From: Crambe crambe
Lineage: Eukaryota > Porifera > Demospongiae > Poecilosclerida > Crambeidae
Length of the DNA stretch: 64,000 bases
Direction of reading: 5' to 3'
NCBI GenBank assembly: GCA_963924555.1
Contig: OZ004591.1
Coordinates: forward strand, 2,542,001-2,606,000
Part shown: positions 14,108 through 63,083 of the stretch, one piece after another
Layout: each line of letters begins with the position of its first letter
How positions within the stretch are numbered: position 1 is the first letter of the stretch
The notes under the pieces: generated by a model
What the model saw: the letters and a program-made list of their open reading frames with translations, nothing else
Databases searched by the model: none
Told to the model about the DNA's origin: nothing
Made by a program: the position numbers and the translations under genes

Positions 14108-14473
14108 CATGGTTAGCAAATTATGCTTTTTTTCTTCCCTATTATGCTATGCTCCAATGCCAGAACCCCTGCCCTATTATGCTCAACAATAATGCCTATT
14201 ATGCTTTTAATAATTGATCAGAAAATTAATTGCAGCCTCTTTTAGTTAGCTTGCTTGAGCATGTAGTAAAGAAAACAGCAGCAGAAGACAGTTGTATGCA
14301 ATAATAGAAATGCTTTTCCACCACCAATTAGGTGGCTATACAAAGGAGCTCAAGAGTCGAAATCAATACCTCATATCTGCAAACCCTTGGAAATAAAAAA
14401 CCCCTATTATGCCAGCATTGTGCTGGAATTGAGGTTCAACCCATTATGCCCCAGCATAATTTGCATGTCCCTA
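14108..14473. mobile_element. Short MITE ending in GCATAATTTGCATGTCC, only in unit 1
   Basis: Left end CAAATTATGC, right end GCATAATTTGCATGTCC, with inner parts (TATTATGCCAGCATTGTGCTGG, and AGAACCCCTGCCCTATTATG) shared with the 1.6 kb element at 16981-18567. It is an internally deleted relative, inserted in inverse orientation. Unit 2 lacks it at the matching place near 58090. Confidence 0.65.
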
Positions 14474-15284
14474 ATGGCTAGGCTCACTAATACCAAAAGT
14501 TCCATTATGATCACTTACTTCAAATCCCTGGAAGTTGTCTTGTGCTGTAGAGGCTTCTTTGAGTGTATTCACTACAGGACACACACACACAACAATAGAG
14601 GAGATATAACAAGATCTCAAGATGAATTTGAATGGTATAAACTTTGACCCTATGATATTTCAAACTAATTAGGTTGCCCAATTCTGTGAGTTGGTAAATG
14701 ACTTCCTGCTCTGCACATTATGTCCATGTGTGAAGAGGTTAAACTTCTAACACATGCAAACTATTGGAGGATGGCAGCCACCACTCATTTCCCATAATCT
14801 CAATTCCAGTAGCTCTGAAAACTCAGCAGATGACAATGGACAGGATTAATCTGTTTGGACTTTAGAGCTGTCTAGAGTGTCACTGTGTACTCTAGGAATC
14901 TTTTACCTCAGAGCAAGCATTGTATGTTGTAGACGTAGGAACAAGAGTGAGACAAGGTCCCTGATTGAGATCCAAATGGTGTGTGGTAAATGCTGCACAG
15001 TAGACATAACATTTTCTCAGTCACCACTTGAATATTCTTGTAGCATGCTCAGCTCAGGTTGACTGCCACCTCATCAACACTGTAACAGGTAGGACTGCAT
15101 TCAAAGCTACCTCAAAACAATAGAGTAACCACTATTAACTAGGAACACACTTCAATTATTATATATGAAGTCTACTGGAATCTCCTAGGCCTAGCAAGAT
15201 AATCACTACACATTTCATTTGATGTTAGTCTCAATTTACAAACACATCAGTCTTTCTTGCAGTTCCATTTAGAGCGCAGGAGAT
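14474..15284 (+). other. 5' flank of the kelch gene, unit 1
   Basis: No gene seen. Unlike the rest of block C, this stretch differs from its unit 2 partner (58090-58925) by many substitutions and small insertions or deletions. Confidence 0.5.
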
Positions 15285-15340
15285 GGGCGTGGCTTGTTTT
15301 TCGATAGGGCGTGGCTCGTTTTTATTTTCCTAGTACAAGT
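15285..15340 (+). promoter_or_regulatory. GC-box-like repeats upstream of the unit 1 kelch gene (2 copies)
   Basis: GGGCGTGGC occurs at 15285-15293 and 15307-15315, each followed by TTGTTTTT or TCGTTTTT, about 25-50 bases before the ATG at 15341. GGGCGTGGC resembles a binding site for KLF/Sp zinc-finger factors (established for that motif class). A promoter role here is inference from position. Confidence 0.45.
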
Positions 15341-17868
15341 ATGGCATCTCCTCTCTATGAGCCTCCCCCTCGTTGGGGTCACTCTTCCTCCATCGTAGAA
15401 GGAAACCTCTTAATGTTTGGAGGAAGAACTAAAGATTTTGACAACCAAGTAGAGAACACCATCAATGTATTTAATCCCTATGACGAAAAATGGACCACAC
15501 ATAAGTCTACAGGTCATCCGATTAGAATATATTCTGGTGCAAGTGCAGCACTAGGCAAAAATTTGTATCATTTCGGAGGAACTAATGGTCATGAGCATAT
15601 AGGATATCTGTATCAATTGGATTCGACTTGGAACATCACAACAATGGACGACTTGAAACATCACAACAATGCACCAATGAGAAAGGTTGGCTCTAGTATG
15701 ATAAATGACGGAGAAAAGCTAATCTGTACAGGCGGCTACGGATCCCTCTCCAGACCGCACCAACTTCAATCTCAATTCGTCTTGGATAACAACTATGATA
15801 ATGAAGTGGGGTTGACAAATGAGTTGCACAGCTTTAACCTCAAAGAAGGTGAGATAGAATATTAGGGGTGGTTAATGAGGTGTGTACACACCACTCTACT
15901 TCCCTCACTCTAAATTGACCCTATAAATATGGGAGTGGTTATGTTGTACTGTGCAAAGCACAAAATAGCAGTCTGTCATTATTTTCTGGCAATTCAATGA
16001 TTTAAATGAATGGTCAAGTTGACTGGACAGAAGCAACTATGTGCATATAAGTGACCTAGTAAACTGATATCATAAAAATATTCAATCTGACATGTGAATG
16101 ACCATAATGTGGATGTTATTTCAGCGTTGACATGTGTAGCACACAGTTCCTCCTATATTATACCATCCTCACCATCTTTGCTGAAACTGGATCTATAGGC
16201 TGCCTTTCTTGCAGGTTTATTTGTTGCAAGTCAGAAGTGAATTAGAGCTCAATTTGGTATTTTAGTGCTAACCACTTCCCTTACAAAGCAGTAGATGTGA
16301 CAATAGTGATTTAACTAGCTACTGGTAACTGGCTAGCTAGTAGCTCTATTAATACTGAAGCTAGCTGTCATAGATAAGATGATGAAGGCACTGGCAGAGA
16401 CTGACTGAAGCTTTTTAGTGGATGGATTGCATCCTCTCCAATAAATTAAAAAATGGGAGTGACTTTATTTGGACGTAGTACCTATCTCAGAGGTCAACCA
16501 TTATTAATTTTACACCACCATTTTTTCTTAACTCATTCAGGGAAGGTGGTTAATGTCCATGTCATCAATTGTCCAGTTTCATAAATGTATCGTTGTTGTG
16601 TGCATGTGCATGACCTATAATAATTATTGGACATCATCACGTGCTTCAGTCCACCATTCTACAACTCAAAATTTATATTAGCTAGCTCATTCTGGATCCA
16701 CCAGAGTGTCCGTAATCCAGAGTACAGAGGTCATCCACTCATAGAGATCCACTTGAACTGTTCAAGGTGAAATCAATTATTGGTAACATACAATTTGTCT
16801 ATTTGGAGGCATCCAGTCTTCAGAGGTCAAAGTAATCATTAAATTACAATTAAATTAAAATACAGTATTTGTGTGGGTGTCTATGGTATCAAAATGGACC
16901 CTTTTCCCATAAAAACTATAATTACTATTAATCAAAACACAGACATAATAAAGATTCATAGAGTCCACTGAAGATGACTAGGGGCATGCAAATTATGCCA
17001 GCATAGTTTTGGGCATAATGGGTTGAACTTTAATGCCAGCACAATGCTGGCATAATATGGGATTTTTACTTCCAGGGGTTGGCAGATATGGAGGTATTGA
17101 TGTCGACTCTTGAGTTCCTTTGTATAAACTGCTGAATTAGAGTAGTAACAAAAATAACAACAACAACAACAACAACAACAACAAAAAACTGTCTTCTGCT
17201 GTTTTTGATTAAAAGAGGCTACAATTATGGCTAGTGGTGGAGTTAAGGAGTTTCTTAGAAGTACCTATCCTAATTCACATCTTAAAATTTAGCACAGCCA
17301 GGGCCGGATCCAGGATTTTTAGATAGCTAGGTGGACTACACACTAGACCATGGGGAAGGCTGCAAGAAAGAGCAAGTTATTTGGAGGATCCATTCTGGCT
17401 TGCAGGCTGCCACTTTTTGAGCATTTAGCATTTTTGCTTCATAATGCACAAATTGGATCCAAGAAGTCCAAAATTTTCCCCAAATCTCCCTACCACATAT
17501 TTGTGTGCATTATATGACAGCATGAGTATAGGCAAAGGTGTGAACCATCTCGAAAATTGCTAGCTAGCTATTACACTTAAACTCTGAAGTGACACATACG
17601 AGGTCACTGCAGGGGTGGCTGAGGACCCCAAAAAGTGCGGGGGGGGGGGGGGGGGGGGGGCTCAAAATTGCGCATCAATGACTACTCCCGATGAGCTGTA
17701 ATGATATTCATAAAGGTTTTGATTCTATACATGTTGTGGCCAAACAACAATGCAGTCACTAATGTGCAACATCATTTGTGACTTGAAACAATGCAGTCAC
17801 TAATATGCAGTGACTAGACAGTAGACTTTACTGCTGCAGTTAGTCAATTGTATAATAGGTCAAAAAAG

Positions 17869-17899
<31 letters not shown>

Positions 17900-20800
17900 T
17901 CAGCTCCCACTGCTAAAAAGTGGGGGGGGGGGGCCACCCTCAGCCGCCACTGGTTAGTATGTCTAATGTGTGACCTTGAAAATGAAAGCCAAAGTGTTCC
18001 AAAAGATATCTTTAAAGTGACACATGCAAGATCACAGGTGTAATTGTTAAGGAAGTCTCAGTTAGTATGCACTGAGTTATCTAATGTGTGACCTTGAAAG
18101 TGCAAGCCAAAATGGATGCATCATGTATACATAGACCATTTCTTTCCTGACCATAGCCTTATATGATGATGGCTGTAGTATCTACATTGGTTAAGTTAGC
18201 TCATATATTATGTGTTCCTACTTTAGAGCAGAAACACAAGAAAAATAGATACGGCTAAGCAAATTGCAATATTATCTACAGGCTTAGCTTGGGAACAAAA
18301 GAGAGGGGGGGGCCCCTCAACCCCACCCCTGGATCCAGCCCTGACAGCATTTGCAATGAAAATATAAAAACGGGAGTGGTAGTGGGACACCCACTAATAA
18401 GTACTCTTTTAATAGAAAATCTTGGATCCGCCACTGTATGCTACACTTTTAAATTTTCTTACCAATTTTTTAAAGCATAATAATTTGTTGAGCATAATAG
18501 GGCAGGGGTTCTGGCATTGGAGCATAGCATAATAGGGAAGAAAAAAAGCATAATTTGCATGTCTCTAAAGATGACACCATGTTTGTATACAGAACTTTGA
18601 GACTATACATACTTTATACAGTCACATGTAGCTACACTGACATGCAACACATAATACACATCATTATGTACAGACATTCCCATCACCTTCACAGGATTAC
18701 CAATCTTTATCTTACTTTCCCCTAACTCCCTCAGGGACATGGTCCTCTCCCACTGTCACTGGAACAAGGCCCCCTCCCTGCGAATCCTTCACACTAACGA
18801 AGATAAATGCAAACACAGCTGTGATGTTTGGAGGATTCCTAGGTGATCGACAGAGAAAAACCAATGATGTGTACATCCTTGATCTGACAAAAATGGTGAG
18901 ATGTAAAGTGTGGTATTAAAATATAGTGTCTGTTTCCATTGTACATTAATGAAGTAGATATTTCAGTATATGCTCTGACAGATGTGATGTACTGACTGGA
19001 TGTTATCATTGTAGCTGGTCCATTATGTCCCCATAGGTAGAGTGCCACCACACTCAGATAAGATATTCATCTATCAAGGTGAATATCCAAGAAATGGGAG
19101 GTCAAGTATGATCATGTGACTTGAGGACCACCAGGACCAATTATGACCATTGTTTATTTAGTAGTAAAAAATGAAACCATGAAACTTTTAGGTCATTGAT
19201 TTTATGATCATATTATATTGTGTTCAGCATGAAGTGAGTTCCATTAGGGAAATATAATAATTATGACCACTGATGAAAGAAGTTATTTAGAATTGTGAAT
19301 GTAGCAATCATTTAGGTTGATAGTTCACAAACCATGTGTCTTCATTTCTTGTTCATATAGTAGCTAGTAGGAAAGTATTAAATGGTCCAAATTTCATATA
19401 ATTTGTACAGCAGCAGAAATGATAATTTATAGTTCGACTTATTAAGCATGTGTGCATAAGCCTAACAGCTAGCTGGCATGCTTGATTGGTAGCAGCTGCA
19501 GTATTGATTTTCAGCAAGCAAGCTTCATCTCTCCCTGACTGCAAGGTGCTAATAAAGCTGTAACAGAAGTACGGAATTCCCTGAAATGAACGAGCTACAG
19601 CAAGTTCATAACTGAACGACAACTTTTCTTTTCTTTATAGCAACCATTGTTACATCCCATGGTTTCAATAGATCTGATCTCTCCATTGCTGTGGCAGCAA
19701 TTAGTCTTTTGAGTTGAGCATAAGAAATTTTAACCAACCCGCCATACAGTAAGTACCAACCTAATAATCTTTCTGTTAATTTGTAAATTGTGAAGAAGGG
19801 GCTAAGTGATAGTGTTTGTCCATGTGTACATGTGTTTATATCATTTGATTGCAATTAATTTTATAACAAATTTATACTTCTTTTTCCCGTCATATCTCTT
19901 CCCTTGTTTTAACTACCTTAAAATCTAACCCCCGTTATTGAACTCTATAGGTTGCCTAGAAATTCATTTGACAGTATTAGTCATCTGTTCTTCTACTGAG
20001 TATTATAGCTCCTTGAATATCAATGAATACCTAATTACTGATGGAGACACACTTCACAGCTTGGTAATTGTAACCTTTTGTAGCACTGGAGAAAACTGGC
20101 TCATCAGGAGGGAGAACCCTGTCCAGTGGCTAGGGACAGCCATGCTTCTGTCTGTCTGGGTTATGATGGAGATCACCCCCAGATTGTTGTGATTGGGGGG
20201 ATTGGTGCTGGCAACAAAGTTCTAAGTGACATGTGGCTACTTGATGTAGTGTCTGGGAGGTGGAGGGAGGTGAGTGATAAATTAGAATAAATAATAACAA
20301 TGGTGGGCACTGAATCATTTAGAATTAAAATCTCCCTTGTTGTTCTTCACCTCCCATGTGGTGTTATTGTTACTGTTTGTGTTGAAGACACTCTCTAGTG
20401 GCATCATATCAGAGCACTCTACCATAGTAGCATATCATCAGTTTAATAAGTGTCATGCAGATATTGACAATGTGTGGGTTTCAGTTGAGATATAATGTTA
20501 TGTCCTTACTGCATCACACTCAGTTGGTAGTGTTTCATTATAGGCAATTTTTTTCACTTTTGCTGTGTGGAGTTGGAGTAAAAAGTGTGCATTGTTTTAG
20601 TTGTAGCTACGAGGAAGTGCTTTTCTACCAATTATAATGTTTGTAGTTAATAGAATTTTCCTTTATCTTCATAATTGGAGTGAGCATAGCAGCACATTAA
20701 GAGTTACAGAGGGTAATTAAATTTAGTCTGGGTATGGAGTAATCTGTCAGGTGTTTGGAAAAATGGTTGGCATTCCCTAGAATAGTTTTAAAATGACCAC

Positions 20801-23800
20801 TGACCAAGTAGTTATTATAATTATTTTTATGATGTGTGAGTAATAACTTAGTAACATTTGTCACATAAATCATTGATAATCACTGTACACATTATCCACA
20901 ACATGCTGTGTACCTCTCCATCTGCTAATAGGCAGGTGCTGCATGTATGAGTGTTTCTAATTACCCTCGTCATGTGTGCACAGCAAGTGTTAATCTGGAC
21001 TTAAAATTACTTGTTCATTTCCACTTGGACAGCTATACAAACTTCTATTTCCTCTAATAGTTCAAAACTGTCAAGTATTTCTTCAGCTCTGGAGTCCTAG
21101 TCTTCAGTTAGCTATTTAATTATTCCATTCCTAATTTGCACGTGAATGTGAAATTCATTGCCATGTCCATATACATGCTTGGGGTGTGAAATGTGAGGTT
21201 ACCACATATTAGAGTAATGTGATCCATTTTGCTATTTTAAGTATGTATGTTGCTATGTACTGTGCTATCTTCAAAGTTCTAATGCAGTGGTACCTGATGA
21301 CCTTTTTATTAGCCAGTACTAACACCAATTATTGGCACCATGTAGTTTAGTATTAGAGGTCAAGACTAACAGTGCTGGAATTAACCATCTAGCACTTATT
21401 GGATTATTATTTGTAGTCTAAAGTACAAATTATCATGAAATGACCCCCTTACTCCCTCTAGTTATGTGTGATATTTGCATGACATTGTCTTGATGAGGTT
21501 GTATTTCACAATGGCACAACATGGAGGTTTTTAAGTCTTGTGGTGTGGAGACTAGTGATGATGTGTGTATTGAAATGGAGGATGATGTCATGGTAATTGT
21601 GAGAGGGATGATCCAATATTATGTGTCCATGTGCAGATCAAAGTTCCAAGTCTCCAGTCAAGATCCAAGCACACTGCTGATGTATTCCATTTCAATGCAA
21701 GACTGGCAGACGTCATTCTATTTGGTGGGATTCCTGAGTGGCCAAAGAATTGCAAATCTGATGCTGACGTTCCAATGATAGCCCAGACCACTGTACTACG
21801 ATTTGGTGAGTGTGATTTAACTGAGGCTAATCATACCATATTTCATTCCTCCATAATATAAGTACAGTAGAAAGTCATTATTTCCATGTATTGTGAATAC
21901 TTTCATTTTAAGTGTGCATATTTTAATGTCTCTATTACCCACTGACTTAACATCTCTGTACAGTGGGACCTCTAAATAAGCAGACATGTCTGGAAGAGCA
22001 TAATAGTCTCTTTATTTGGAGACATAGTGACATTACTGTAAATCTTCTATTTAGTGTGCTACTCTAATATAGTGTCACAATCACATTTAGACCCATTCTT
22101 ATAATCATGGCACTAAATGAAGTTTTAGTATGACATTGCACTAAGCACCACTCTATAATGCAGTCAATGTAGTCTAATAATAAACTCTCATTCTGCTAAT
22201 GTGCCAGTCATGATTTTTTCTGGCATGTTAATTGGAAGATTTATGGTATTGGATGTTCTATAGTAACTGTTGTTGTTCACTGCACTTGTTAGGAAGTTGT
22301 GTTTGTGGTTTGTGCATGTCTTGTGTTGTTGTGCATGACTTATGTGGTTATACAAGTACAAGCTATTCACAAGATTAAAGACAGACAAGTGTGATAGTTT
22401 GTTTTAGAATGATTATTTCATCCAATTCCCTCATTTTTACTCATGCTTTTTAAACACCCTATCATTCTGGAGATGAAACATACTTCACTTTCATTGTACC
22501 ACCACACATCCAAACTCATTTAGACCAACCCCTCTTCCAATGTGCCATAAATTTTAAACTAAATTATGCAGAAACTGAGTTGCTTCAATCCAGTTTTCAG
22601 CATGTAGCTAACTTCTTAATGAGTGACTTCCTTTTCAAATCATTCATTATTTTCCTAACTCCATTAGCTGATGATCTAAATTGTTCATGTAATAATTAAG
22701 GTTTCAATATGCAAGGGTCAGCACCCTCATAATCTTGTATCATTATATTTGGAGGTCAAATTGAGGAGTATTTCAGTGAGAGTTTCACTGGAGCATGTGA
22801 AGCTAGCTTTTTACTTCTTCTGACAGTTTTGCTGCTACAAAAATATTCTGAGTTAAATGTTCTTTAAGTATCATTCGACACTTAACATGTTTAGATATTG
22901 AAATTGAACAGATTGCAGCTGGCAAGCTTGTAGTTCATGGTCTTCTCTTCGCAATCTGCATCAGGAGTGAAAGTACATATCCTTGTTTCTTGTCCTTGAT
23001 TTACTGCTAGATAGTTATAACAGAAGATACTTTACTGTGGATGTGGTTCCATTTTATATGCTGTGTACAGCTACTCGATTACTATTTCATCAAGTGACCT
23101 CCACTTAACTTACCAACCACTCATTGATAATTGATACTTCAAATAACTACATCCATCATACTTTGCCATTTCTTCTCCACCATCTTGTGATATGAAGAAT
23201 ATCACAAGAACTTAATGGTTAAAAAATGGATATCACTTCTATTTCTCATCTAGTTTCTAGTTACTAGATAGTTTCCATGCAGTAACTAGTTACCATATGG
23301 TGGAAATTTTTCATTGAGTAAACATTCATGGATTCAGTTGTTTTACTCCAGCCTATGGTTCACACTTCACAACACATTATCGCAGTATTTCCCAACCAAT
23401 TAGCTAAGATTGATTCCTGTCAAAAGCTGGTCTAAACCTCCACCATAAATCTCACTATCATTTAATGACATACAAAGACACTCTTCAAACCTGAGGTCAA
23501 CCATGACATAATTATTACTAATGCTAATTAGAATGTGTTGATGATGAGTGGAGTCTGATTGATGTGTGCAAGTTTCCTGACCTCGGGAGTCCAGAGAGAG
23601 TGAAGATGAAAGAAGATCTGAAGAAGAATTCCAGTAAGTGTGCATATGTAATTATAGAGTTAGTATCATATCAACCCTCAGTGCATGCACGAAGGTTACA
23701 GTACTCAGTTGTGTATGTATTAATTAGTGTATCTGTTACATCCACCATGAAGCCATGCAGTAGTGGTTACCTCAACTATGTCCAAATAATACTCTCCAGT

Positions 23801-25129: not shown

Positions 25130-28100
25130 ATGAGTGATCGTGATGGAGCCCTTCACTTTATGTCTGATCCATTGAATTTAGTGATAGAGCAACACTTGAA
25201 GGAAGGCATCCAGCATGGCTTCATTCCATCAGAAGTTGCCAACTGCCTAGCTTATGGAGTTCCGGGATCAGGGAAGACGTCTCTCCACTATTCTCTCTAT
25301 GACCTCCCTGCACCGGAACTTCGCATCAGTACTGCATGCATCGAGCAAGCACAGAGAGCAGTGCTGGTCACAAGAAGCAGTGAAGATTCTTCATCTGAAA
25401 TTGTGATATGCAAACCAGTGGAAGAACAGGATCTCAAAGAAATGCTTGCGAAAGAGATGACTGAAGAAAGGATAACCGAGCAAAAGAAAGAAGTATTTTC
25501 ACAAATCGAGAAGACACTGAAGGAAAATTTTCCAGTGGAAGATCGCTCGACTCGACCCGTGTCACCTTCCACTCAAGAGCCGACTCCAGTGGAAGATCAT
25601 CCACTGCAACACTTACTTCAGCCTGTTTCAATTCCAGGGCCTTCCCCCACACCTGATGAAGAAGCTACTTCGCACTTAGTCATATCACCTCGAGTGAAAT
25701 TGCAAGGAATGGATGAAATCCTGTATTTGATGCTCCATCCCACCCCAGCCAACCTACCACGACTGAGAAACCGCTTGGTGCAATTCATCGACAGTGGTGG
25801 ACAGCCCAAGTTATTGGAGATGTTACCTGCATATCTCCGAAATCTCTCTGGTGTGATGCTTGTGCATCGTCTCTTGGAGAGCCTCAGCACCATGCCCAAG
25901 GCAGAATACTGCGATAAAGATGGGAAGCTGTTCGAGTTGGGTCACTTCAACCTGACCAATCTGGAAATGTTGGTGAAGTGTGCACAGCTCTCTCGTTACC
26001 ACCAGTCTCATCTGGCACTTCCTCATGTGGAGTGTGATGATTCTCCTCCCGACATTGTAGTGGTGGGTACCTTCAAAGATCAGGAAGGCAAATGCAAGCA
26101 AACCAGGGAGGAGAAAAATGCTAAACTGGAGGTGGCATTTGAGCAGTTTGGCAAGAGCATCATCAGGCGATCAAATGGGGAGATCATCTTTGGTGTGGAT
26201 GCCACCTCTCGTAGCGATCCTATAATCTCAGAGCTAAGAGCTGCCTTGAAGCATATGAAATGCCTGCACTACAAGTGCCCGATCCTGTGGTACCTCCTTG
26301 AAGTGGAGCTGAGGAAGCTGGGGAAGAAAGTTATTCCCAAAGAGTATGTCATGTCAATAGCCAAAGAGTTGCATATCGAAATCACAGAATCGATAGAAGC
26401 TGCATTGCTGTTTTGGCATGAAATTAATCTCATCATGTATTTTCCAAGTATCCTTCCTGAAGTTGTCATATTCCAGCCAGATGCCATGATTGGAATGATC
26501 AGTCAACTCTACGAGCAGCACATCAAGATCAGCGACACTGCTGAATGCGATATTTCCTCCGAAGAAGATTTACGTTTTCGAGACCAAGCTGTCTTTAGTG
26601 ATGATTATGCCTACAACATCAAAAATGAGACCATCCTGTCTGTGGACGAGCTCCTCCTTATCCTTCAGGACAGGAAGACCATTGCAAAATTGCCTTCCAG
26701 CTCCTCCCTGTATTTCATGCCCAGCCTTTTAGAAGAGTTGACTGAAGAAGAGCATGCTGGTTCTCATTCTCAACTTGCCTCTCAACGTCCAGTTGCTTCA
26801 TCTCTGCTGGTCTCTTTCCCCACTCCCGAAGTTCCTTCAGGTCTCTTTTGCACTTTCATATCTGATATAGTCTCTTCCAGTGAGTGCAAGATCCCTCACC
26901 TCGATAGTACCACCAGGTTGTATAGGAACTTCATCTCTGTCACTCTTAGTTTTAGCTCAGTCTCTTTCGGTACACTCACTCTGCACAACACGGGAAAGGT
27001 TTTCTCCATCACTCCTTACTCCCTCTCCTCTTCTTCTTTCTTGCCAAAAGTGAAGAAGCTTGTAGCTAAAGCTCTTGATGCTTCTTGTAGGGTGTTGTCT
27101 TACAGAAAGCTTCACCAGTTCTCCTTCCAGTGTGAGTGTGGTCAATCTCCTCCTCATGTTGCTCATGTTTCACCTGACAAGAAGGTAACCACCTGCTCCA
27201 TGGATGCTGATAAAGCAGGCATTGATCTCACCAGGAAGCAGCTCATGTGGACGAGTAAGTTTTCATTTATGATCACTTCATTCACTAATCTTTTTTCTCT
27301 TTATTTAGATCAGTCCATTGGAGTCACTCCTGAACCTTTCGACTCTTTATCTCAAGGTACATTGACTGCCAAACTAATACTAGATCATGACTACATCACA
27401 TGCACATGATTTTCTTGCATATTATGTCTATCATGTTTGTATACATAACATATTAGAGTATGTGAGAGGACTCGATGTCATTGGATCGACCTCATTCATT
27501 TACAGTGGAGAAGCTGTGAGCTTCACCTGGAAGGACTATGGCTTCAAGCTCCACCTTCCTGAGAATGCCTTACCTCCTGATGTCACAGAGTGTTCTGTTC
27601 GAATCAGGGCATCTCTCTCTGGCCAGTTCCAGTTTCCTGATGGTGCTGAGTTGGTGAGTGGAATCTACTCCATTCACAGCTCTCACTCCTTCACTCGGCC
27701 AGCAACAGTGGAAATTGAGCATTTCAGCACCATTGACACTCCCAAAGAAGCTGAAGAGCTTTCCTTCGTCGTCAGCACTGGAGACCTACTGGTCTCTCAA
27801 TTCCGCCCACTTAATGATGGGATTTTCCCTGTTCACAGTAGATATGGAGCCATTGAAGTGCCACATTTTTGCAAGTATGGTGTCACAAGGACTAAAAGGT
27901 CAAGAAGATCAGCAAGACGTGAACAAGTGGATCAGGAGCAGAGTTATAGCCTCGAGTCTCGCAATTTATACAAAGGCTATCTTCTATTCAACGAGGCAAA
28001 TCATGGTGATGATTGGGAAGTGATATTCAGTATTACTCCAGACTCAAAAATCCACTCTAAAGTGAGTTAGCTTTGATAATTATGCAGACCATAATAATTA

Positions 28101-29285
28101 TTACTGGCTTATTTTTCTTCATAGAATCTTCTGGAGAAATATCCCACTAACTCTGTGATTGAGCAACCTGTTGCGTTCAAAGAGAACAAGATAGAGTTGA
28201 ATATTCCTAAGGGAGGTCTTGATTTGGAAGGAGGTTGGAAGATTCATCCACTGGCAGCACCCATTGTAAGTGCACAGAGCTATATAGCTGTCCACAATTA
28301 AGGCATTTCCCTTTGGACTCACTCACTTCTTTATCATACAGATTCTCAAGTCTCATGTGGACACTTACCGACTTCATAAGCGATTTTCTTTTTGCAAGTT
28401 GAAAGTACGATACAGAGGTGTGGCACCCACTAGATCTGACCTGACATACAGCATTGACCTTCTTGGTGCTGAAGAACCTTACACTTATTTCACATTGTGC
28501 ATTTCATCTCAAGGTAAAGTTGCCATAATTTATAACTAGCTATCCAGTTGTAGTCAATACAATTGTCTTGTAGTATCTCCTCCAGTGCAATCTCTGCCAT
28601 CATCTGGAAATGAATCAGGGATTTCCCCAGTAGCATCAGCAAGCAATGTAAGTCACTTCAAGACCTCACAATCACACCTAACTCATAACTGACAATAATG
28701 TCCATTATAGGTGAGAGCCAGCACTAGTCCACAAGTTCTATTTCCAGAAAAGTCTTGTGAGTATGGTGGTACTTACAACACAATATTTAATTTCATTTAA
28801 CTGAGTATCTTCTTTTCCATTTACAGACCAGAACATACTGGCAACAGTAGATGACACAGACCTTGGTAAGCAAGCTATACACATACTTGTAGTTTGCAGT
28901 TACTGTTCATTCTTCCTTCTTTCTAAGGTATTGATGATATTGGAGATGTCTTTGATGAAGTGGAGAAGTTATCTCCAAAATGGGACTTGTTAGCTATGAA
29001 GCTACGTCTGAGAAATCATGCAGTTGAAAACATCCAGGAAAATTGCAGTGATGTCATGAGTAGCCTTAGTAAAGCCTTAAAAGAGTGGCTGAAGTTGAAC
29101 TACAATCACCAAAAATATGGAAGACCAAGCTGGCGGAGGTTAGCAGAGGCTGTGCGGAGTCTCGATTATGGACTCTTTGAGGAGATAGCCAGGAATCATG
29201 CAGGTGAGATGATACAGTTTCTCTGTTAGAATAGATTGTTTATCATTTCCTTTGATGTGCAGCTCAAGATATGTCACAGAGTTGA
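25130..29285 (+). CDS. Roc-like GTPase / COR-like / ZU5 / UPA-like / death-domain protein (10 exons, 1182 aa)
   Basis: Exons I place by GT/AG borders and phase: 25130-27254, 27309-27356, 27457-28061, 28125-28265, 28342-28513, 28574-28647, 28711-28756, 28827-28865, 28928-29203, 29263-29285. They sum to 3549 nt, an exact frame ending in TGA. Seen in the protein: P-loop GVPGSGKT (43-50), G3-type DSGGQP (221-226), G4-like GTFKD (313-317), a COR-like winged-helix stretch (about 385-465, FWHEINLIMYFP), and a Cys/His patch CECGQSPPH near 668. A ZU5 domain (about 735-835) and UPA-like region follow, then a C-terminal death domain (about 1095-1176) with WDLLAMKLRL and PSWRRLAEAV. Family knowledge: Roc-COR modules are regulatory GTPases, and ZU5-UPA-DD is the tail of UNC5, PIDD and ankyrin proteins. 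A cytosolic signalling or cell-death role is inference. The gap between G1 and G3 (about 170 residues, charged and Pro-rich) is unusually long. No LRR, kinase, signal peptide or membrane segment is visible. Confidence 0.88.
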
Positions 29286-45965: not shown

Positions 45966-46165
45966 TTAATTGTCAGAAAAAAGTTCATCCCATTGATCGA
46001 GAGAAGAGAACTCTGAATCTGGAGTTTCTTGTTCCTCAGTTTGTCTTGGTCTTAATGTCTCACTCTGGTTAGGTCTTCTCATACGTTCTCCCCACCAAAG
46101 GTCCACTGCAGTGGATGATGAAAAGTTTTCAAGAGTAGGACCCTCTATATTTATTTCGAGATGTG
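45966..46165 (-). pseudogene. C-terminal tail of the hAT transposase in a third frame
   Basis: Reads HLEINIEGPTLENF, then STAVDLWWGERMRRP and an acidic Glu/Asp/Ser-rich end to a TAA at 45966-45968. The WW plus Arg-rich stretch follows hATC in this transposase group, so this is the natural end of the protein, cut off by a second small frame shift (a CA repeat at the junction). Confidence 0.65.
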
Positions 46166-47824
46166 AAGGCTACTCCGGCGATCAGTCTTGATCACTTTCA
46201 GCTTTGAAAATGCCCTTTCAACACCGCTAGTAGTAAAAGGTAAACTGAAGAGTAGTTCACTTAATAAAAGAACTGTAGGCCAATTTTTTGACTCAGAGGT
46301 TACGTGAAGTTTGTACCAAATTTTCTTGTAGTCCTCAAGCTGAATATTCAGATACTTCCTACCAAAAGCCACAATTTCTTCCAATTCATCATTAAAGGAT
46401 GAAAGGCTAGCTCCTTTAGCTTCTAGTGGAACCCGAAATAATGAAATTATGTAGTCAGTGGCTGTGATGATCTGTTCTATTCCATCATCCGGTTCAGAAT
46501 GTGGTGTTGTTCCATGGGAGACCCAGCTACGAGTGTCCAAAAATACCAAGATAGATCTGAGTAGTTTCATATCAGACCACTGAAGCCTTTCTCGTATCTT
46601 GGTGTCCAACCTAGCAAGATCTGCTTTAGCATGAGCTGAACACTGATCCAGCGACTTACTGCTGTATTGATTCAAAGCACAACCCTGGTAGACACCCTCA
46701 TCATTGACTTTAGTAAGCAGTAATTTAACCTGTGGCCACTGTAAAGGATCCTGTTCTGACAGAGACATCAAAGTATCGACTGATTTTACTATGGGATTGA
46801 TGCCTTCAATTATGTCAAGGCTATCACACTGTAGAGTTAAACTAAGCATAGAAGGAGCCTTTAATATTTCGATATACATAGCTGATCCAATAAGCATTTT
46901 TGTCCTTGACCATTGCTTAAGATAGCCTTGTATACGAGCTCTATCAACGGCTTTTACAGAGGAATCCTGAGATAATGTGGTTAAATGAGCAATATAAGCT
47001 CCAAAACGATCAATCACTCTTTGGAGTGCCTTACGTTTGTGAGTAATCCACCTGGTACCTTGGCATCTGACAGGTAAGGCTCCCCCTTTAGGCAGGCTAA
47101 ACACTTCCTTCAAATCACTGACAATACCGGCAAGTTCCTGAGATTTTTTGGGGGAATTTTGATAGAGATAATATAACCTAAGAAGCATTTCATTGATATC
47201 CAATTCTAGCCTATGTGCAAAACACCAGGACCAAAATAGCCAAGGTAAGTCTGACTGTAACTTGCCTTTCATCCCACCATGGGCACCCACATTCACAGAT
47301 GCACCATCTGTACCAGCACCAATCAATACAGGCATCTTATCTACACCAAGAACGCTGTTAGGTGAGTGGATGTCCTCAATGCCAATGCGAGACAAAGCTT
47401 CGCCCAAACCAAGCAGTAAACCGTCAGCATCACCACGGGTGGGTTTAACTACTGCCAAATACCTAGTACGAGCCTGTATTTCACATGAACTGTCATCTTT
47501 AACACAAAAAACAACTAAAACCAGCTCAACCTCTAAATTTCCACTATCTGTCGAACCATCCATAAGGAAGCTTAAAAATTTACTATTACCAGACTCTGAA
47601 AGAAAGTGGAAGAAATCTTGCCGCTGGCTTTCAGCTATAAAGTGTGTAAAAATCTGTGCAGAGTCAGGCCACATATAAGAGGATCCAAGATCGATCCCAT
47701 GACTTTGTTCAAGTGCATGAAAAGCTGGGTATTTCCTGAAGGCTATGCCTTCACGAGCCAAAACATAGCAAATATCAAACTTCTTCATCAAACGAGACTT
47801 TTCCCCGTCATCAATAGTAAGCAA
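46151..47824 (-). CDS. hAT-type transposase, catalytic and dimerisation part
   Basis: About 557 codons, resembling ZNF862/KIAA1586-like hAT transposases. Seen: LMKKFDICYVLAREGIAF near the start of the RNase-H-like region; a first acidic motif MDGSTD; a second, GAGTDGASVNVG; WCFAHRLELD (Cys/His pair); and near the end LLFSLPFTTSGVERAFSKLK, the hATC dimerisation motif with the conserved Glu. The apparent start is not a real start. The N-terminal part (47788-48189) is in another frame, with a GA run at the overlap that suggests a 2-nt shift. A second shift just before the stop cuts off the C-terminal tail (45966-46165). So the element is inactive but young, since no stop lies inside this long part. 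Confidence 0.85.
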   Translation of the reverse strand: MLTIDDGEKSRLMKKFDICYVLAREGIAFRKYPAFHALEQSHGIDLGSSYMWPDSAQIFTHFIAESQRQDFFHFLSESGNSKFLSFLMDGSTDSGNLEVELVLVVFCVKDDSSCEIQARTRYLAVVKPTRGDADGLLLGLGEALSRIGIEDIHSPNSVLGVDKMPVLIGAGTDGASVNVGAHGGMKGKLQSDLPWLFWSWCFAHRLELDINEMLLRLYYLYQNSPKKSQELAGIVSDLKEVFSLPKGGALPVRCQGTRWITHKRKALQRVIDRFGAYIAHLTTLSQDSSVKAVDRARIQGYLKQWSRTKMLIGSAMYIEILKAPSMLSLTLQCDSLDIIEGINPIVKSVDTLMSLSEQDPLQWPQVKLLLTKVNDEGVYQGCALNQYSSKSLDQCSAHAKADLARLDTKIRERLQWSDMKLLRSILVFLDTRSWVSHGTTPHSEPDDGIEQIITATDYIISLFRVPLEAKGASLSSFNDELEEIVAFGRKYLNIQLEDYKKIWYKLHVTSESKNWPTVLLLSELLFSLPFTTSGVERAFSKLKVIKTDRRSSLHISK

Positions 47825-48189
47825 AGATCTCTAACTACAGGGGCATAAGACTGAACAGGCTCATTACGAGCTTTAGCTAAAGCAGTATGCATGAAATTCA
47901 TAGCAGCCTTGTGCTGGTCACTCTTTGCATGGTCCAAAATGTTACTGGTCCTGTGATTCCAAGAGCCATTTATCCAAGCACTGGAGAAGTTTCTCATGCC
48001 AATTATTTTATTTTCATACTCTCTGCATACCTTACAGTAGACTGTAGATACCAGTAACCGATCATCCTTGTCTCGATCACATCTTAGCCACACTAGACTA
48101 CTATGCTCCTTGTCCAGCTCTCTCTGCCATTTGTTAAAGGTAGACACTTGGACTTGCCGCTTACTTCGCTTAGCTGGAGCTTCGTCCAT
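47788..48189 (-). CDS. hAT-type transposase, N-terminal zinc-finger part
   Basis: Starts with ATG at 48189 (MDEAPAKRSKRQVQVSTFNK), a basic leader, then a TTF/BED-like zinc finger: VYCKVCREYENK, FSSAWINGSWNHRTSN, and DHAKSDQHKAAM. The Cys-x2-Cys and later His-x5-His are the ligands expected for DNA binding at transposon ends. The useful reading ends near PVQSYAPVVR, after which the protein continues in the frame of 46151-47824 (RSLLTIDDGEKSRL). Confidence 0.8.
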   Translation of the reverse strand: MDEAPAKRSKRQVQVSTFNKWQRELDKEHSSLVWLRCDRDKDDRLLVSTVYCKVCREYENKIIGMRNFSSAWINGSWNHRTSNILDHAKSDQHKAAMNFMHTALAKARNEPVQSYAPVVRDLCLLLMTGKSLV

Positions 48190-48387
48190 GGAGCTTGAGC
48201 TAGATGTGCAGCTGCTGGTGCTGGAAGCCGTGACTGATCAATTAACTAACTGTACACGTGTGCAAATTTAATTAAAGTTAGTGAATGCATGCATGACCGG
48301 TCATGTTTTAGTCCTCTTTAGAGACTGACATGACAAAAGATACATGTACGTAAAAGTACCCAGTAAGCACATTTAATAAGTTATTTA

Positions 48388-57323: not shown

Positions 57324-58925
57324 ACAATACATATAGCAGCATATCCACCCACGTATGTGTAAGTGCAAACATGGACCTGCAAATAGGTCCCCACACTATT
57401 ATAACAATTATGCAGTGAGACCTGTAGGGGTGGTTATGCCATGGTGGTATTGAGACTGGTGGTAAGGGTGGTAATATAATGGCACATTGGGACTGGCAGA
57501 CTTTCTAGCACATTAAAAGGTGTCTCTTGGAAGTTCTTTGTCTTGTGTCCGGATCCATAATCACACTAGCCATGAAATGGAATGAGAATAGCATATGCAT
57601 GCTAGATTCACCCTTTGTTTTATTTTAATTAAATGATTGATTTTTGACCAGTTGTGGTTGGGATGTCCAGGTGATAGTGACACATCAATAAAGATTAGCA
57701 GATTATCCTAGTAAAGACACTACAGTTAATAGTCTCTCCTTTGATGACATTCTGTTTCAGAGTTTTAAGGTAAAAAATAGCCAGTAATTAACAGTCCAGC
57801 TACGCTTGAGCACATTCTTATTACTTCAGCTTTCCAGGATGTCTTCCCATTATGCTCGTGATATTGAATGCACAATATCAAACTAGTCTGTGTGCTGGTT
57901 GAAGCGTTATGCTTCAAAATTATGAAGTCATAATACTACTGTGCTGGTTATTGAGCACTATATCTCCCCATACACAAAACACCACATAACACAAATCATT
58001 GTCATGTGTCACAATAAACAACACCAAATAAGGGCATGTGGCATGTAGACACAAGTGTATTCATATACTACATAAGAGGTTTGTGGTATTTTGTGCTGTA
58101 AAGTGCAGGACACACACACACAACAATAGAGGAGATATAACAAGACTTCAAGATATATTTGAATGACAAATATATTTCAAACTAATTAGGTTGCCCAATT
58201 CTGTGAGTTGTTCTTGCTCTGCATATTATGTCCATGTGTGAAGAGGTTAAACTTCTCACACATGCAAACTATTAGAGGATGGCAGCCACCACATATCTAG
58301 TAGCTCTGAAAAGCCAGCAAATAACAATGGACAGGCAGTTTGTCAGGATTAATCTGTTAGGACTTTAGAGCTGATGTCTAAAATTTGACAGATTAATGGA
58401 CACCTCAACCATCCCTTGGACCCTAAATTTCATTGAGTTGACCATGTACATCTATCATAAATTTATGGCCCCTCCCCCAAACAAGGCAAGTCATCTTCCT
58501 ACACCACTATAAGAGTGTCACTCTGTGTACTCTACCTCAGAGCAAGCATTATGTAGAAGTAGAGATGATATACAACAAGAGCGAGACAAGGTCCCTGATT
58601 GAGATCCAGTTGTACAAATGGTGTGTGGTAAATGCTGCACAGCAGACATGTTTTTTCAGTCACCACTTGAATATTCTTGCAGCATGCTTAGCTCAGCTTT
58701 ATAGGATTTTCTTTTCTCTATTGGTTGACTGCCACTTCATCAACACTGCAACAGGTAGGACTCTACCTCAAAACAATACAGTAACCACTATTAACTAGGA
58801 ACACAATTCAACAGCTGAATTCTACCGGAATCCTAGGCCTAGCAAGACTTTCACTACATTATTTTTTGAGTTTAAACGCACATTTCATTAGTCTTCCTTG
58901 CTGTTCCATTTAGAACGCAGGGGAT

Positions 58926-59003
58926 GGGCGTGGCTCGTTTTTGCATTGAGGCGTGGCTCGTTTTTGCGGTGAGGCGTGGCTCGTTTTTGCGGTGAGGCGT
59001 GGC
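58926..59003 (+). promoter_or_regulatory. GC-box-like minisatellite upstream of the unit 2 kelch gene (4 copies)
   Basis: Four units of about 23 bases carry (A/G)GGCGTGGC at 58926-58934, 58949-58957, 58972-58980 and 58995-59003, ending 25 bases before the ATG. The equivalent position in unit 1 has only two units, so the array has expanded or contracted since duplication. A KLF/Sp-type function is inference. Confidence 0.45.
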
Positions 59004-59028
59004 TTGTTTTATTTACCTTTCTACAAGT

Positions 59029-62000
59029 ATGGCATCTCCTCTATATGAGCCTCCCCCTCGCTGGGGTCACTTTTCCTCCATCGTAGATGGAAACCTCTTA
59101 ATGTATGGAGGAAGAATGAAAGATTTCTACAACCAAGTAGAGAACACCATCAACTTGTTTAATCCCTACGAGGAAAAATGGACCACACATAAGACTACAG
59201 GTACTGATCTGATTAGAATATATGATGCTGCAAGTGCGGCACTAGGCAAAAATTTCTATCTTTTCGGAGGAATTAATGGTCAAGAGTATATAGGATATAT
59301 GTACCATCTGGATTCGACTTGGAACATCACAACAATGGACGACTTGGAACATCACAATAATGCACCAATGAGAAAGCGTGGCTCTAAGATGATAAGCCAC
59401 AAAGAAAGTCTAATCTGCTTTGGAGGTTACGGAATCCCCTCCGGACCGCACCAACTTCAATCTCAATTCATCTTGAATAACAAGCATGATGATGGAAGGG
59501 GGTGGACAAATGAGTTACACAGCTTTAACCTCAAAGAAGGTGAGGTAGAATATTAGGGGTGGTTAATGAGGTGTGTACACACCACTCTACTTCCTTCACT
59601 CTAAATTGACCCTATAAATGTGGGAGTGGTTATGTTGTACTGTGCAAAGCACAAAATAGCAGTCTGTCATTATTTTATGGCAATTCAATGATGGTCAAGT
59701 TGACTGGACAGAAGCAACTATGTGCATATAAGTGACCTAGTAAACTGATATCATAAAAATATTCAATCTGACATGTGAATGACCATAATGTGGATGTTAT
59801 TTCAGCTTTGACATGTGTAGCACACAGTTCCTCCTATATTATACCATCCTCATCATCTTTGCTGAAACTGGATCTATAGGCTGCCTTTCTTGCAGGTTTA
59901 TTTGTTGCAAGTCAGAAGTAAATTAGAGCTCAATTTGGTATTTTAGTGCTAACCACTTCCCTTACAAAGCAGTAGATGTGACAATAGTGATTTAACTAGC
60001 TACTGGTAACTGGCTAGCTAGTAGCTCTATTAATACTGAAGCTAGCTGTCATAGATAAGATGATGAAGGCACTGGCAGAGACTGACTGAAGCTTTTTAGT
60101 GGATGGATTGCATCCTCTCCAATAAATTTAAAAATGGGAGTGACTTTATTTGGACGTAGTACCTATCTCAGAGGTCAACCATTATTAATTTTACGCCACC
60201 ATTTTTTCTTAACTCATTCAGGGAAGGTGGTTAATGTCCATGTCATCAATTGTCCAGTTTCATAAATGTATTGTTGTTGGTGCATGTGCATGACCTATAA
60301 TAATTATTGGACATCATCACGTGCTTCAGTCCACCATTCTACAACTCAAAATTTATATTAGCTAGCTCATTCTGGATCCACCAGAGTGTCCGTTATCCAG
60401 AGTACAGAGGTCATCCACTCATGGAGATCCACTTGAACTGTTGAAGGTGAAATCAATTATTGGTAACATACAATTTGTCTATTTGGAGGCGTCCAGTCTT
60501 CAGAGGTCAAAGTAATCATTAAATTCACACTTTCAAATATTTGGATCTAATACTAGTAAGGTATAATGGAAACTACTTTTGAAATGTACAGTAGTAATAG
60601 CTGAGTACTAATTTATTCAACTCACTTATAATTGGGTTGATGGATGGTAAGTGAGGTAATATCTATTCATCTCTTTACTCTCACCTTTTATCCTTCTACA
60701 TTTTAGAATAAGAGCATAATTATTAATAGAGCAGGTAATATAAAATGATGTAGTTATTATTGCCATTTAATTCCAGTACAAATTGTGGCAGATAATCAAG
60801 GACTAGCTACTTAGACCTACTTATGTGTAACACCCAACAAAGTTGTTTCTATCCTTATGCTTGAGATTAAGCAATGATGTTCCAGGCTCTGGGAAATGAT
60901 GTCTGTGCTTTCTGTTGAAACACAACTATAAAAGGTTTATGGTCCTACTGGACCTCATCTCTTATAAATGTCATTCCTGAAAGATTTGACTCTTAACTAA
61001 CCTCTGAGGATGTCAATAATATTTACTTCCAGATTTGTTTGTGACTCAGTGTTAAGTGTGACAACTATACAGTATTTGTGTGGGTGTCTATGGTATCAAA
61101 ATGGACCCCTTTCCCATAAAAACTATAATTACTATTAATCAAAACACAGACATAATAAAGATTCATAGAGTCCACTGAAGATGACTAGGGAGGCATGCAA
61201 ATTATGCCAGCATAGTTTTGGGCATAATGGGCTGAACTTTAATGCCAGCACAATGCTGGCATAATATGGGATTTTTACTTCCAGGGGTTGGCAGATATGG
61301 AGGTATTGATGTCGACTCTTGAGTTCCTTTGTATAAACTGCTGAATTAGAGTAGTAACAAAAACAACAACAACAACAACAACAACAAAAAACTGTCTTCT
61401 GCTGTTTTTGATGATTAAAAGAGGCTACAATTATGGCTAGTGGCGGAGTTAGGGAGTTTCTTAGAAGTACCTATCCTAATTCACATCTTAAAATTTAGCA
61501 CAGCCAGGGCCGGATCCAGGATTTTTAGATAGCTAGGTGGACTACACACTAGGCCATGGGGAAGGCTGCAAGAAAGAGCAAGTTATTTGGAGGATCCTTT
61601 TTGGCTTGCAGGCTGCCACTTTTTAAGCATTTAGCATTTTTGCTTCATAATGCACAAATTGGATCCAAGAAGTCCAAAATTTTCCCCAAATCTCCCTAGC
61701 ACATATTTGTGTACATTATATGACAGCATGAGTATAGGCAAAGGTGTGAACCATCTCGAAAATTGCTAGCTAGCTATTACACTTAAACTCTGAAGTGACA
61801 CATACGAGGTCACTGAAGGAAATCACAGTTAGCAGGGGTGGCTGAGGACCCCAAAAAGTGGGGGGGGGGGGGGGGGGGGGCTCAAAATTGCGCATCGATG
61901 ACTACTCCCTATGAGCTGTAATGATATTCATAAAGGTTTTGATTCTATACATGTTGTGGCCAAACAACAATGCAGTCACTAATGTGCAACATCATTTGTG

Positions 62001-63083
62001 ACTTGAAACAATGCAGTCACTAATATGCAGTGACTAGACAGTAGACTTTACTGCTGCAGTTAATCAATTATATAATGGGTCAAAAAAGTGGGGGGGGGGG
62101 GGGGCTCTACCCCCTCTCGCCCCCACCCTCAGCCGCCACTGGTTAGTATGTTTAATGTGTGACCTTGAAAATGAAAACCAAAGTGTTCCAAAAGATATCT
62201 TTAAAGTGACACATGCAAGATCACAGGTGTAATTGTTAAGGAAGTCTCAGTTAGTATGCACTGAGTTATCTAATGTGTGACCTTGAAAGTGCAAGCCAAA
62301 ATGGATGCATCATGTATACATAGACCATTTCTTTCCTGACCATAGCCTTATATGATGATGGCTGTAGTATCTACATTGGTTAAGTTAGCTCATATATTAT
62401 GTGTTCCTACTTTAGAGCAGAAACACAAGAAAAATAGATATGGCTAAGCAAATTGCAATATTATCTACAGGCTTAGCTTGGGAACAAAAGAGAGGGGGGG
62501 CCCTCAACCCCACCCCTGGATCCAGCCCTGACAGCATTTGCAATGAAAATATAAAAATGGGAGTGGTAGTGGGACACCCACTAATAAGTACTCTTTTAAT
62601 AGAAAATCTTGGATCCGCCACTGTATGCTACACTTAAATTTTCTTACCAATTTTTTAAAGCACAATAGGCATTTTTGTTGAGCATAATAGGGCAGGGGTT
62701 CTGGCATTGGAGATTAGCATAATAGGGAAGAAAAAAAAGCATAATTTGCATGTCTCTAAAGATGACACCATGTTTGTATACAGAACTTTGAGACTATACA
62801 TACTTTATACAGTCACATGTAGCTACACTGACATGCAACACATAATACACATCATTATGTACAGACATTCCCATCACCTTCACAGGATTACCAATCTTTA
62901 TCTTACTTTCCCCTAACTCCCTCAGGGACATGGTCCTCTCCCACTGTCACTGGAACAAAGCCCCCTCCCTGTTCTTACTTCACACTAACAAAGATAAATG
63001 CAAACACAGCTGTGATGTTTGGAGGGAGCCTACCTGATTATAAGAGAACCAATGATGTGTACATCCTTGATCTGACAAAAATG
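59029..63083 (+). CDS. Kelch-repeat protein, unit 2 copy, first two exons (continues past the window)
   Basis: Exon 1 is 59029-59539 (ATG start, 170 codons plus 1 nt) and exon 2 is 62926-63083, ending at GTGAGA. Both are open, with the same splice phases as the unit 1 gene. The window ends inside intron 2; by the offset to unit 1, exon 3 should lie about 270 bases past it. The encoded blades keep the kelch signature (LLMYGG, FYLFGG, LICFGG, AVMFGG), yet about a fifth or more of exon 1 residues differ from the unit 1 copy, while the intron sequence is nearly identical. No stop or frameshift is seen in the visible part, so it looks like a functional paralogue and not a pseudogene. Confidence 0.8.
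60525..61066 (+). other. About 540 bases in kelch intron 1 present only in unit 2
   Basis: Unit 1 jumps from TAATCATTAAATT (16835-16847) to ATACAGTATTTGTGTGGGTG after a short A/T stretch. The extra DNA is A/T-rich with no inverted ends that I can see, so a deletion in unit 1 is as likely as an insertion here. Confidence 0.5.
61505..62530. mobile_element. Nested hAT-like element, unit 2 copy
   Basis: Same ends and same ACAGC flank (right copy 62531-62535) as 17299-18343. Confidence 0.7.
61833..62141. mobile_element. Innermost hAT-like element with poly-G tracts, unit 2
   Basis: Begins CAGGGGTGGCTGAGG, ends CCTCAGCCGCCACTG, with GTTAG on both sides (61828-61832 and 62142-62146). The second G run is much shorter than in unit 1 and is followed by a C/T-rich stretch. 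Confidence 0.72.

Follow-up and report, generated by a model that had tools for sequence, protein, structure and literature searches.

Tandem kelch genes of the sponge Crambe crambe: variable predicted pocket residues on a little-diverged background

The kelch genes of the window and their tandem array

We analysed 64,000 nucleotides of the genome of the sponge Crambe crambe (GenBank assembly GCA_963924555.1, contig OZ004591.1, here C14, positions 2542001-2606000; this whole stretch is the window), which carries two kelch units, the final ones of a tandem array of 15. The two units, U2557 (at window position 15341) and U2601 (at 59029), are described in Table 1 together with a neighbouring gene. 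Across the array, the units vary most in loops of a predicted beta-propeller, including positions equivalent to the ligand contacts of KLHDC2, and very little in their first two introns.

Exons 1 to 4, spliced as predicted, encode a 341-residue kelch domain with six glycine-glycine (GG) doublets at residues 27, 79, 131, 202, 261 and 315, and the splice phases are consistent across exons 1-5. The best PDB match of this domain is KLHDC2 (E 8.6e-17, query residues 8-316 of 342), and we assign it as a predicted kelch-repeat beta-propeller of the KLHDC2 type with six GG repeats. No signal peptide is evident by eye at the start of the protein. Exon 5 of U2557 encodes SLIDVCKFPDL (23552-23584), a partial match to the BC-box pattern; U2601 reads GLIDVC, and neither region gives a Pfam match. 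Ubiquitin-ligase substrate receptors of the KLHDC2 type carry a BC-box and a cullin box after the propeller. An extra exon considered at 19015-19080, identical in both units, was rejected because exon 2 joins the exon at 20084 in phase and the stretch is not kelch-like by eye.

Table 1. Features of the kelch units and the adjoining gene (window positions).
Feature	Position	Strand	Remarks
Type A 5' flank/promoter block of U2557	14341..15340	+	about the last 1 kb; further upstream types A and B hardly align
Kelch exon 1, blades 1-3	15341..15848	+	169 codons plus 1 base; Pfam PF24681, 61.1 bits (cut-off 50)
Variable codon 65, blade 2, before strand	15533..15535	+	4 residues among 15 units; 7 residues at the equivalent site of array 2
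Variable loop, codons 81-84, after GG of blade 2	15581..15592	+	4, 4 and 5 residues at codons 81, 82 and 84
Variable codon 116, blade 3	15686..15688	+	8 residues, all NNT codons (N, any base)
Intron 1	15849..18734	+	
Kelch exon 2, blade 4	18735..18895	+	kelch matches; exon 2 alone 34.4 bits, below cut-off 50
Hypervariable stretch, exon 2 (PPPC[xx]FTLT)	18775..18794	+	window diversity 0.129, 0.101
Hypervariable stretch, exon 2 (MFGG[..]TND)	18835..18864	+	aligned to KLHDC2 R236-R241; window diversity 0.292, 0.354, 0.163
Intron 2	18896..20083	+	
Kelch exon 3, blade 5	20084..20269	+	
Exon 3 variable codons 18-19 and 40-44	20135..20140 and 20201..20215	+	codons 18-19 align to KLHDC2 S269, W270
Kelch exon 4, blade 6	21637..21805	+	read in 14/15 units
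Exon 4 variable codons 10-11 and 39, 42, 45	21664..21669 and within 21751..21771	+	
Exon 5, non-kelch tail, conserved	23532..23633	+	aligned to U2601 and U2443 only
Downstream open reading frame, P-loop	25130..27406	+	own ATG; COR-A match below cut-off (E 1e-4, 22.7 bits, cut-off 35.3)
ZU5-like region	27387..28067	+	below Pfam cut-off (E 0.025, 15.3 bits, cut-off 21)
Death domain	28930..29226	+	PF00531, E 1.3e-5, 25.7 bits (cut-off 22.6)
Kelch exon 1 of U2601, type B 5' block	59029..59539	+	
Kelch exon 2 of U2601	62926..63083	+	158 bases

The 143.1 Mb of the assembly (119 contigs) were searched. A DNA search with exon 1 detected 15 full-length copies, all on the + strand of C14 between 2.02 and 2.60 Mb and 82-100% identical, which we call array 1. 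Exon 1 lacks a stop in all 15 units, exons 2 and 3 are likewise open in all of them, and the 15 proteins of exons 1-3 are all distinct, with 18-64 alignment columns differing between units. The first 971 bases of intron 1 have full-length matches of 90-97% in 12 other units and partial ones in U2020 and U2314. Near every one of the 15 there are also matches to exons 2 and 4 and to the initial 2.1 kb of the GTPase stretch that lies downstream. Related exons lie at 5.0-5.7 Mb of C14 (about 44-49% amino-acid identity), at 4.1-4.45 Mb and in other places, and many kelch open reading frames (ORFs) of about 300-340 open codons cluster on contigs C13, C12, C3 and C9; the searches for kelch ORFs, exon 4 and the GTPase/death gene scored part of the candidates, so that these counts are lower bounds.

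Variation is concentrated in loops of the predicted propeller

A first-pass annotation of the window had reported that the promoter and exon 1 of the two units differ strongly while the intron that follows is almost identical. Its coordinates are right and so is the observation: 66 of 507 aligned bases differ in exon 1 (39 protein alignment columns, counting one inserted codon) and 72 of 653 in the 5' flank (last 1000 upstream columns, 327 of them gapped in one unit), against 13 of 934 in intron 1 (first 1000 columns of the family alignment). It would have been undone by equal divergence of exon and intron, or by a low ratio of replacement (dN) to silent (dS) substitutions with silent divergence like that of the intron. 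We found exon and intron divergence about ten-fold apart and, for the exon 1 pair, a dN of 0.136 and a dS of 0.169 (Nei-Gojobori, ratio about 0.8), far above the 0.014 of the intron.

The emphasis on the exon/intron border, on the other hand, does not hold. Exon 1 is not special, as exon 2 (17/156), exon 3 (14/183) and exon 4 (10/168) differ between the same two units and intron 2 hardly does (7/916). Conservation over most of exon 2 equals that of the adjoining intron, and exon 5 shows few base differences in the two other units compared (U2601 and U2443). The earlier observation is thus correct, and one corner of a larger pattern.

This pattern is clearest in exon 2. Across the 15 units, diversity in ten-base steps reaches 0.10-0.35 only in the two hypervariable stretches of Table 1; the remainder of the exon has four steps at 0.025-0.027 and is otherwise zero, as are the adjoining intron ends, 40 bases of intron 1 and 50 of intron 2. 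Because exon 2 diversity is almost confined to these stretches and exon 5 is conserved, the relevant border is that between loop and scaffold and not that between exon and intron. Among the 24 codons of the kelch domain with at least four residues, 11 lie at GG+2 to GG+8, eight lie 14-20 residues before a GG doublet and five elsewhere. Each of blades 2-6 carries codons of this kind at or near both places.

Correspondence to the KLHDC2 pocket and tests of selection

Excerpts of one study of KLHDC2 name Arg236, Arg241, Ser269, Tyr163, Trp191, Trp270 and Lys147 as ligand contacts in its degron pocket (PMC11377542), and excerpts of another predict a contact at Arg189 (PMC12169847). The residue identities of KLHDC2 are consistent with the aligned chain at these spacings. 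Assigned by homology to KLHDC2 only, contacts 163, 147, 189, 191, 236, 241, 269 and 270 fall on kelch positions 133, 117, 156, 158, 204, 211, 241 and 242, at which array 1 has 3, 2, 3, 2, 8, 3, 6 and 5 residues, respectively. All eight are variable, compared with a background of 114 of 341 columns (p 1.3e-4); six have at least three residues (45/341, p 9e-5) and three at least four (24/341, p 0.014).

The proportions of replacement (pN) and silent (pS) differences follow the same division, with a pN/pS of 5.46 at the eight contact-equivalent codons (pN 0.347) and 0.78 at the other 333. Nine exon 1 sites chosen by eye from a second array (array 2, described below) have a pN of 0.275 and a pS of 0 in array 1. 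Two further estimates are to be read with their origin in mind: the 24 codons with at least four residues were selected after seeing the data, so that their ratio of 5.48 is biased, and the GG+2 to GG+8 and pre-strand windows, with ratios of 1.63 and 4.10 in array 1, were drawn after seeing that array. As a control, the downstream GTPase ORF has a ratio of 0.17 (0.11-0.24, about 392 of 759 codons). On trees, we counted 334 replacement and 95 silent changes in the kelch exons and 76 and 138 in the GTPase ORF, and 32 and 4 codons, respectively, with at least four residue changes.

Promoters, introns and the reshuffling of segments

Upstream of exon 1 there are two types of 5' sequence, A in five units and B in ten. 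In the last 300 alignment columns, sequences of different type are 17-19% apart and those of one type 0-3%. Over these columns the flank of U2557, of type A, is 0.4-2.0% from those of U2061, U2106, U2151 and U2234 and 17-19% from those of the ten type B units. The types have their last fixed difference at alignment column +140, counted from the ATG. A GGCGTGGCTCGTTTTT-like motif, perhaps a promoter repeat, recurs just before the ATG, with two copies in U2557 (15286-15325) and four in U2601 (58925-59010).

Introns 1 and 2 look homogenised. Any two of the 15 units are 0.2-2.4% apart in the first 900 columns of intron 1, whatever their promoter and exon type, and beyond these columns the diversity of the intron is about 2% without U2526. 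This unit is divergent in distal intron 1 and in part of intron 2 and raises mean intron diversity; its distal intron 1 is about 58% different from that of all other units over 18435-18690, and the last 40 intron bases are identical. Diversity in intron 2 is 0.0045 at 18896-19350, 0.0047 at 20000-20083, 0.0135 in a third stretch and 0.054 at 19388-19460 (0.016 without U2526). Intron 3 has 0.024 at its start and 0.019 at its end, and the start of intron 4 has 0.003-0.019.

The segments of a unit mostly have different histories. In Mantel tests on 14 units (U2485 was dropped from exon 4, as its splice string was not found, and hence from these tests), promoter distances correlate with those of exon 1 (r 0.59, p 0.002) and intron 2 distances weakly with those of exon 3 (r 0.27, p 0.013). 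The remaining 26 of 28 comparisons have p >0.05, exon 1 with intron 1 (0.054) and exon 2 with intron 2 (0.052) just so. Exon 3 is exactly identical in U2443 and U2485, while exon 1 of these two units differs at 61 alignment positions and exon 2 at 18. The pairwise homoplasy index (PHI) gives a recombination signal in exon 1 and in the GTPase ORF (0/300 shuffles each). Separation on the contig is only a weak predictor of likeness, for exon 3 (p 0.042). Since the groupings of the units by promoter, by exons and by GTPase ORF mostly disagree, we conclude that blocks have been reshuffled between units. The conservation of exon 5 and of most of exon 2, which equals that of the introns, does not favour exchange of exons templated by cDNA.

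A second array and a kelch clade on another contig

Array 2 comprises 13 exon 1 loci, ten of which were used for pN/pS (L029, L034 and L027, identical to L026, were left out). Exon 1 pairs are 4-14% apart and the first 300 columns of intron 1 0.5-3%, the pair list including L029, and the most variable exon 1 sites are, by eye, at the same places as in array 1. The six most variable codons have a pN/pS of 1.45. L026 and L027 (C14 5701257 and 5370725) have an identical exon 1 and a nearly identical intron 1 at a distance of 330 kb, a likeness that their sequences suggest is due to recent exchange or duplication.

The C13 set consists of five of at least eight kelch matches at 2.24-2.46 Mb of C13 and has intronless ORFs. 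These match designed kelch proteins, KLHL20 and Keap1 best, and KLHDC2 is not among the 60 of 89 matches listed. Of the 22 columns with at least three residues, 15 fall in the 72 of 345 columns that make up the windows (p 9e-7). The pN/pS is 1.66 in the GG window, which is here an independent test, 1.14 in the pre-strand window (GG-17 to GG-13) and 0.49 elsewhere. A model of the C13 propeller (mean predicted local distance difference test, pLDDT, 71.3; predicted template modelling score 0.73) places columns with at least two residues preferentially in loops (50/86, p 0.0015). The contrasts in array 2 and in the C13 clade are thus similar to those of array 1, but weaker.

The neighbouring GTPase/death gene and other features of the window

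Downstream of the kelch exons lies an ORF with a P-loop, followed by ZU5-like and death-domain regions (Table 1). Its first 390 codons or so are under purifying selection, the death-domain part is matched near at least 11 of the 15 units, and the first part of the gene sorts into three or more lineages at odds with the grouping by kelch exons. We treat it as a neighbouring gene because an in-frame stop precedes its ATG, directly or by one codon, in nine of the ten units read upstream; the stop was not seen in U2277. A kelch-GTPase-death fusion, which we considered, is unsupported given this stop, and no junction fitting the phase of exon 5 was found by eye. The GTPase ORF of U2358 (L091) has an in-frame TGA at codon 4 and a later in-frame ATG, and may start there or be damaged. 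Elsewhere in the window, at 46154-48237 on the - strand, are pieces of an hAT-type transposon; their hAT dimerisation match (E 0.0011) is below cut-off, and there is a zinc finger of C17orf113 type (E 6e-8).

A putative recognition family and alternative explanations

We think it probable that these genes form a germline-encoded kelch recognition family, in which the pocket would be selected to differ and the rest shuffled and homogenised by ectopic recombination. Selection would favour different pocket residues in each copy because the peptide or protein that it binds, most likely one of microbes or non-self cells, may differ from copy to copy or change. Ectopic recombination and gene conversion would spread the remainder of the gene and mix pocket segments into new combinations, and conversions that erase pocket differences would be lost. 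The kelch protein, having no signal peptide by eye, presumably acts inside the cell. Its output could be that of a KLHDC2-like ubiquitin-ligase adapter, or a signal to the adjoining GTPase gene, which in the window unit has a death domain.

Several results weigh against this reading. Exons 1-4 together have a pN/pS of 0.87 (bootstrap 0.66-1.16), and therefore there is no excess for the whole gene; the selection proposed in the first-pass annotation finds support at the pocket-equivalent codons and not in the exons as a whole. The overall ratios of array 2 exon 1 (0.59, 0.41-0.86) and of the C13 set (0.78, 0.55-1.10) point the same way, and in a tree-based binomial test per codon no single codon was significant. 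Five of the 24 most variable codons lie outside both windows (T53, N151, C324, D327 and V330, the last three in the longer loop of blade 6), and blade 1 varies less and has no codon with at least four residues. In the C13 model the loop enrichment of columns with at least three residues is not significant (13/22 vs 132/299, p 0.11), and PHI for exons 2 and 3 together is not significant either (109/300 shuffles). Moreover, the exon joins are predicted from sequence, the structure model of exon 1 was poor (mean pLDDT 48.7) and was left unused, and the sample is one genome. That the family is kept diverse as in recognition systems, as first suggested, agrees with the placing of the variable codons; recognition itself, as well as immunity and signalling through ubiquitin ligases or death domains, is our inference, and for immunity this too counts on the negative side.

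The silent sites are a further difficulty. In exons 2-4, divergence at silent third positions is 0.115 within 6 bases of a variable codon and still 0.026-0.059 at 16-60 bases, against 0.000-0.005 in intron 2 and 0.024 at the start of intron 3; the GTPase ORF has a pS of 0.103 though it lacks variable loops. Because these distant third positions and the GTPase pS remain high, linkage to the pocket does not explain all silent divergence. Pocket selection with linked silent changes accounts for the peak and not for the whole gap, and introns 1 and 2 are unusually alike.

Relaxed constraint, by which pocket loops tolerate any residue and change is not favoured, seems to us unlikely. Whole kelch exons with pN/pS near or below 1 in all three sets would suit it, but at the eight pocket-equivalent codons pN exceeds pS about five-fold, and the pocket pN is some 30 times the intron 1 divergence (0.011), which neutrality would not produce unless the introns alone are homogenised. 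Exons 1-3 are, furthermore, open in every unit.

We give distinctly low credence to the idea that introns 1 and 2 are functionally constrained in a gene that otherwise diverges normally. It would explain why intron 1 in its first 900 columns, and intron 2 over most of its length, lie below exonic silent sites and the pS of the GTPase ORF, but it leaves unexplained why replacements cluster in the pocket and why exon 5 and most of exon 2 are conserved. Intron sequence is also not indispensable, because U2526 carries a quite different distal intron 1, and in array 2 intron 1 is likewise low (0.021) yet matches that of array 1 only over short or 66-88% stretches. Homogenisation, the other alternative raised at first, is supported to this extent: intron 1 is alike in its first 900 columns whatever the 5' type.

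Just as improbable, if not slightly more so, is that conversion imported a promoter and exon 1 from another unit and nothing more. The two discrete 5' types and the correlation of promoter with exon 1 favour such block replacement, and the first-pass proposal of a third paralogue is right in part, in that U2557 resembles U2151 and U2106 in promoter and exon 1 more than it does U2601 (it is 0.4% from U2151 in the last 300 upstream columns), just as U2601 is nearer there to U2020 and U2405 than to U2557. However, exons 2, 3 and 4 bear variable loops with other groupings, and within types A and B exon 1 pN is 0.066 and 0.062, yet the last 300 promoter columns differ by 1.5% and 1.1%. Block replacement is thus refuted as a full account and still true of the 5' block.

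Targeted mutation of loop codons, by a diversity-generating retroelement or a hypermutation-like process, we regard as highly improbable: such retroelements have a template repeat and an NNY codon pattern (Y, pyrimidine), and array 1 does have mostly pyrimidine-ending codons at 21 of the 24 most variable sites vs 166 of 320 others (p 4e-4) and minimal changes of 50, 37 and 14 at codon positions 1, 2 and 3, but amino-acid selection likewise leaves third bases unchanged, and the bias is not significant in array 2 (5/6 vs 94/167, p 0.19; 16/23 vs 83/150, p 0.15) or on C13 (12/22 vs 145/323, p 0.25). A diversity-generating retroelement is not supported, as the DNA search gave no full-length exon 1 copy beyond the 15 units that could be a template, full-length exon 2 copies occur only in the units and in the relatives at 5.0-5.7 Mb of C14; a search aimed at a reverse transcriptase was not made.

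Comparison with known systems and significance

The putative recognition family resembles KLHDC2 in sequence, and its variable codons coincide with the KLHDC2 pocket contacts. The degron-binding arginines and serine of KLHDC2 (R236, R241, S269) are, in contrast, not kept: U2557 has F204, K211 and D241 in their place, and all three positions vary across the units. KLHDC2 is one conserved gene and is not known as a hypervariable array.

In its mode of evolution the array appears PRDM9-like, with little background divergence and an excess of replacements at predicted ligand-contact sites. Excerpts on PRDM9 describe repeats homogenised within species, with positively selected residues at the ligand contacts (PMC2794550). 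Unlike the DNA-binding zinc fingers within the one PRDM9 gene, the units here are whole genes and the pocket is of another kind.

Snake venom phospholipase A2 genes also have exons that diverge more than their introns, in a family under accelerated evolution; they encode secreted toxins, whereas the kelch array keeps its scaffold and exon 5 and varies in loops only. Among substrate adapters, the F-box/MATH genes of nematodes and the S-locus F-box genes of plants form large families whose binding domain is under selection. They differ from the array, which has a kelch pocket and no F-box or MATH domain in the pieces scanned. Invertebrate recognition repertoires have mostly been described for immunoglobulin, lectin, scavenger receptor cysteine-rich, leucine-rich-repeat and NLR proteins. 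Like the kelch array, the sea urchin 185/333 immune gene family is highly variable (PMC4204807). It is not known to have a kelch fold, and its pattern of variation is another. We found no description of a hypervariable kelch array in the titles and abstract openings of papers listed by our searches of PMC.

More tentatively, and with the odds somewhat against it, the kelch genes may amount to a large intracellular, antibody-like repertoire with a fixed scaffold and hypervariable loops on the binding face, whose pocket segments have been exchanged among tandem genes in three or more arrays belonging to two kelch clades, and which could recognise non-self through ubiquitin ligases or the death-domain GTPase. 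If a kelch-pocket repertoire does exist, it would be a new scaffold for recognition, and it would suggest that KLHDC2-type substrate receptors can be converted to a diversified defence. The alike background of the array would in addition provide an unusually clean map of the propeller residues that are likely to face the ligand.

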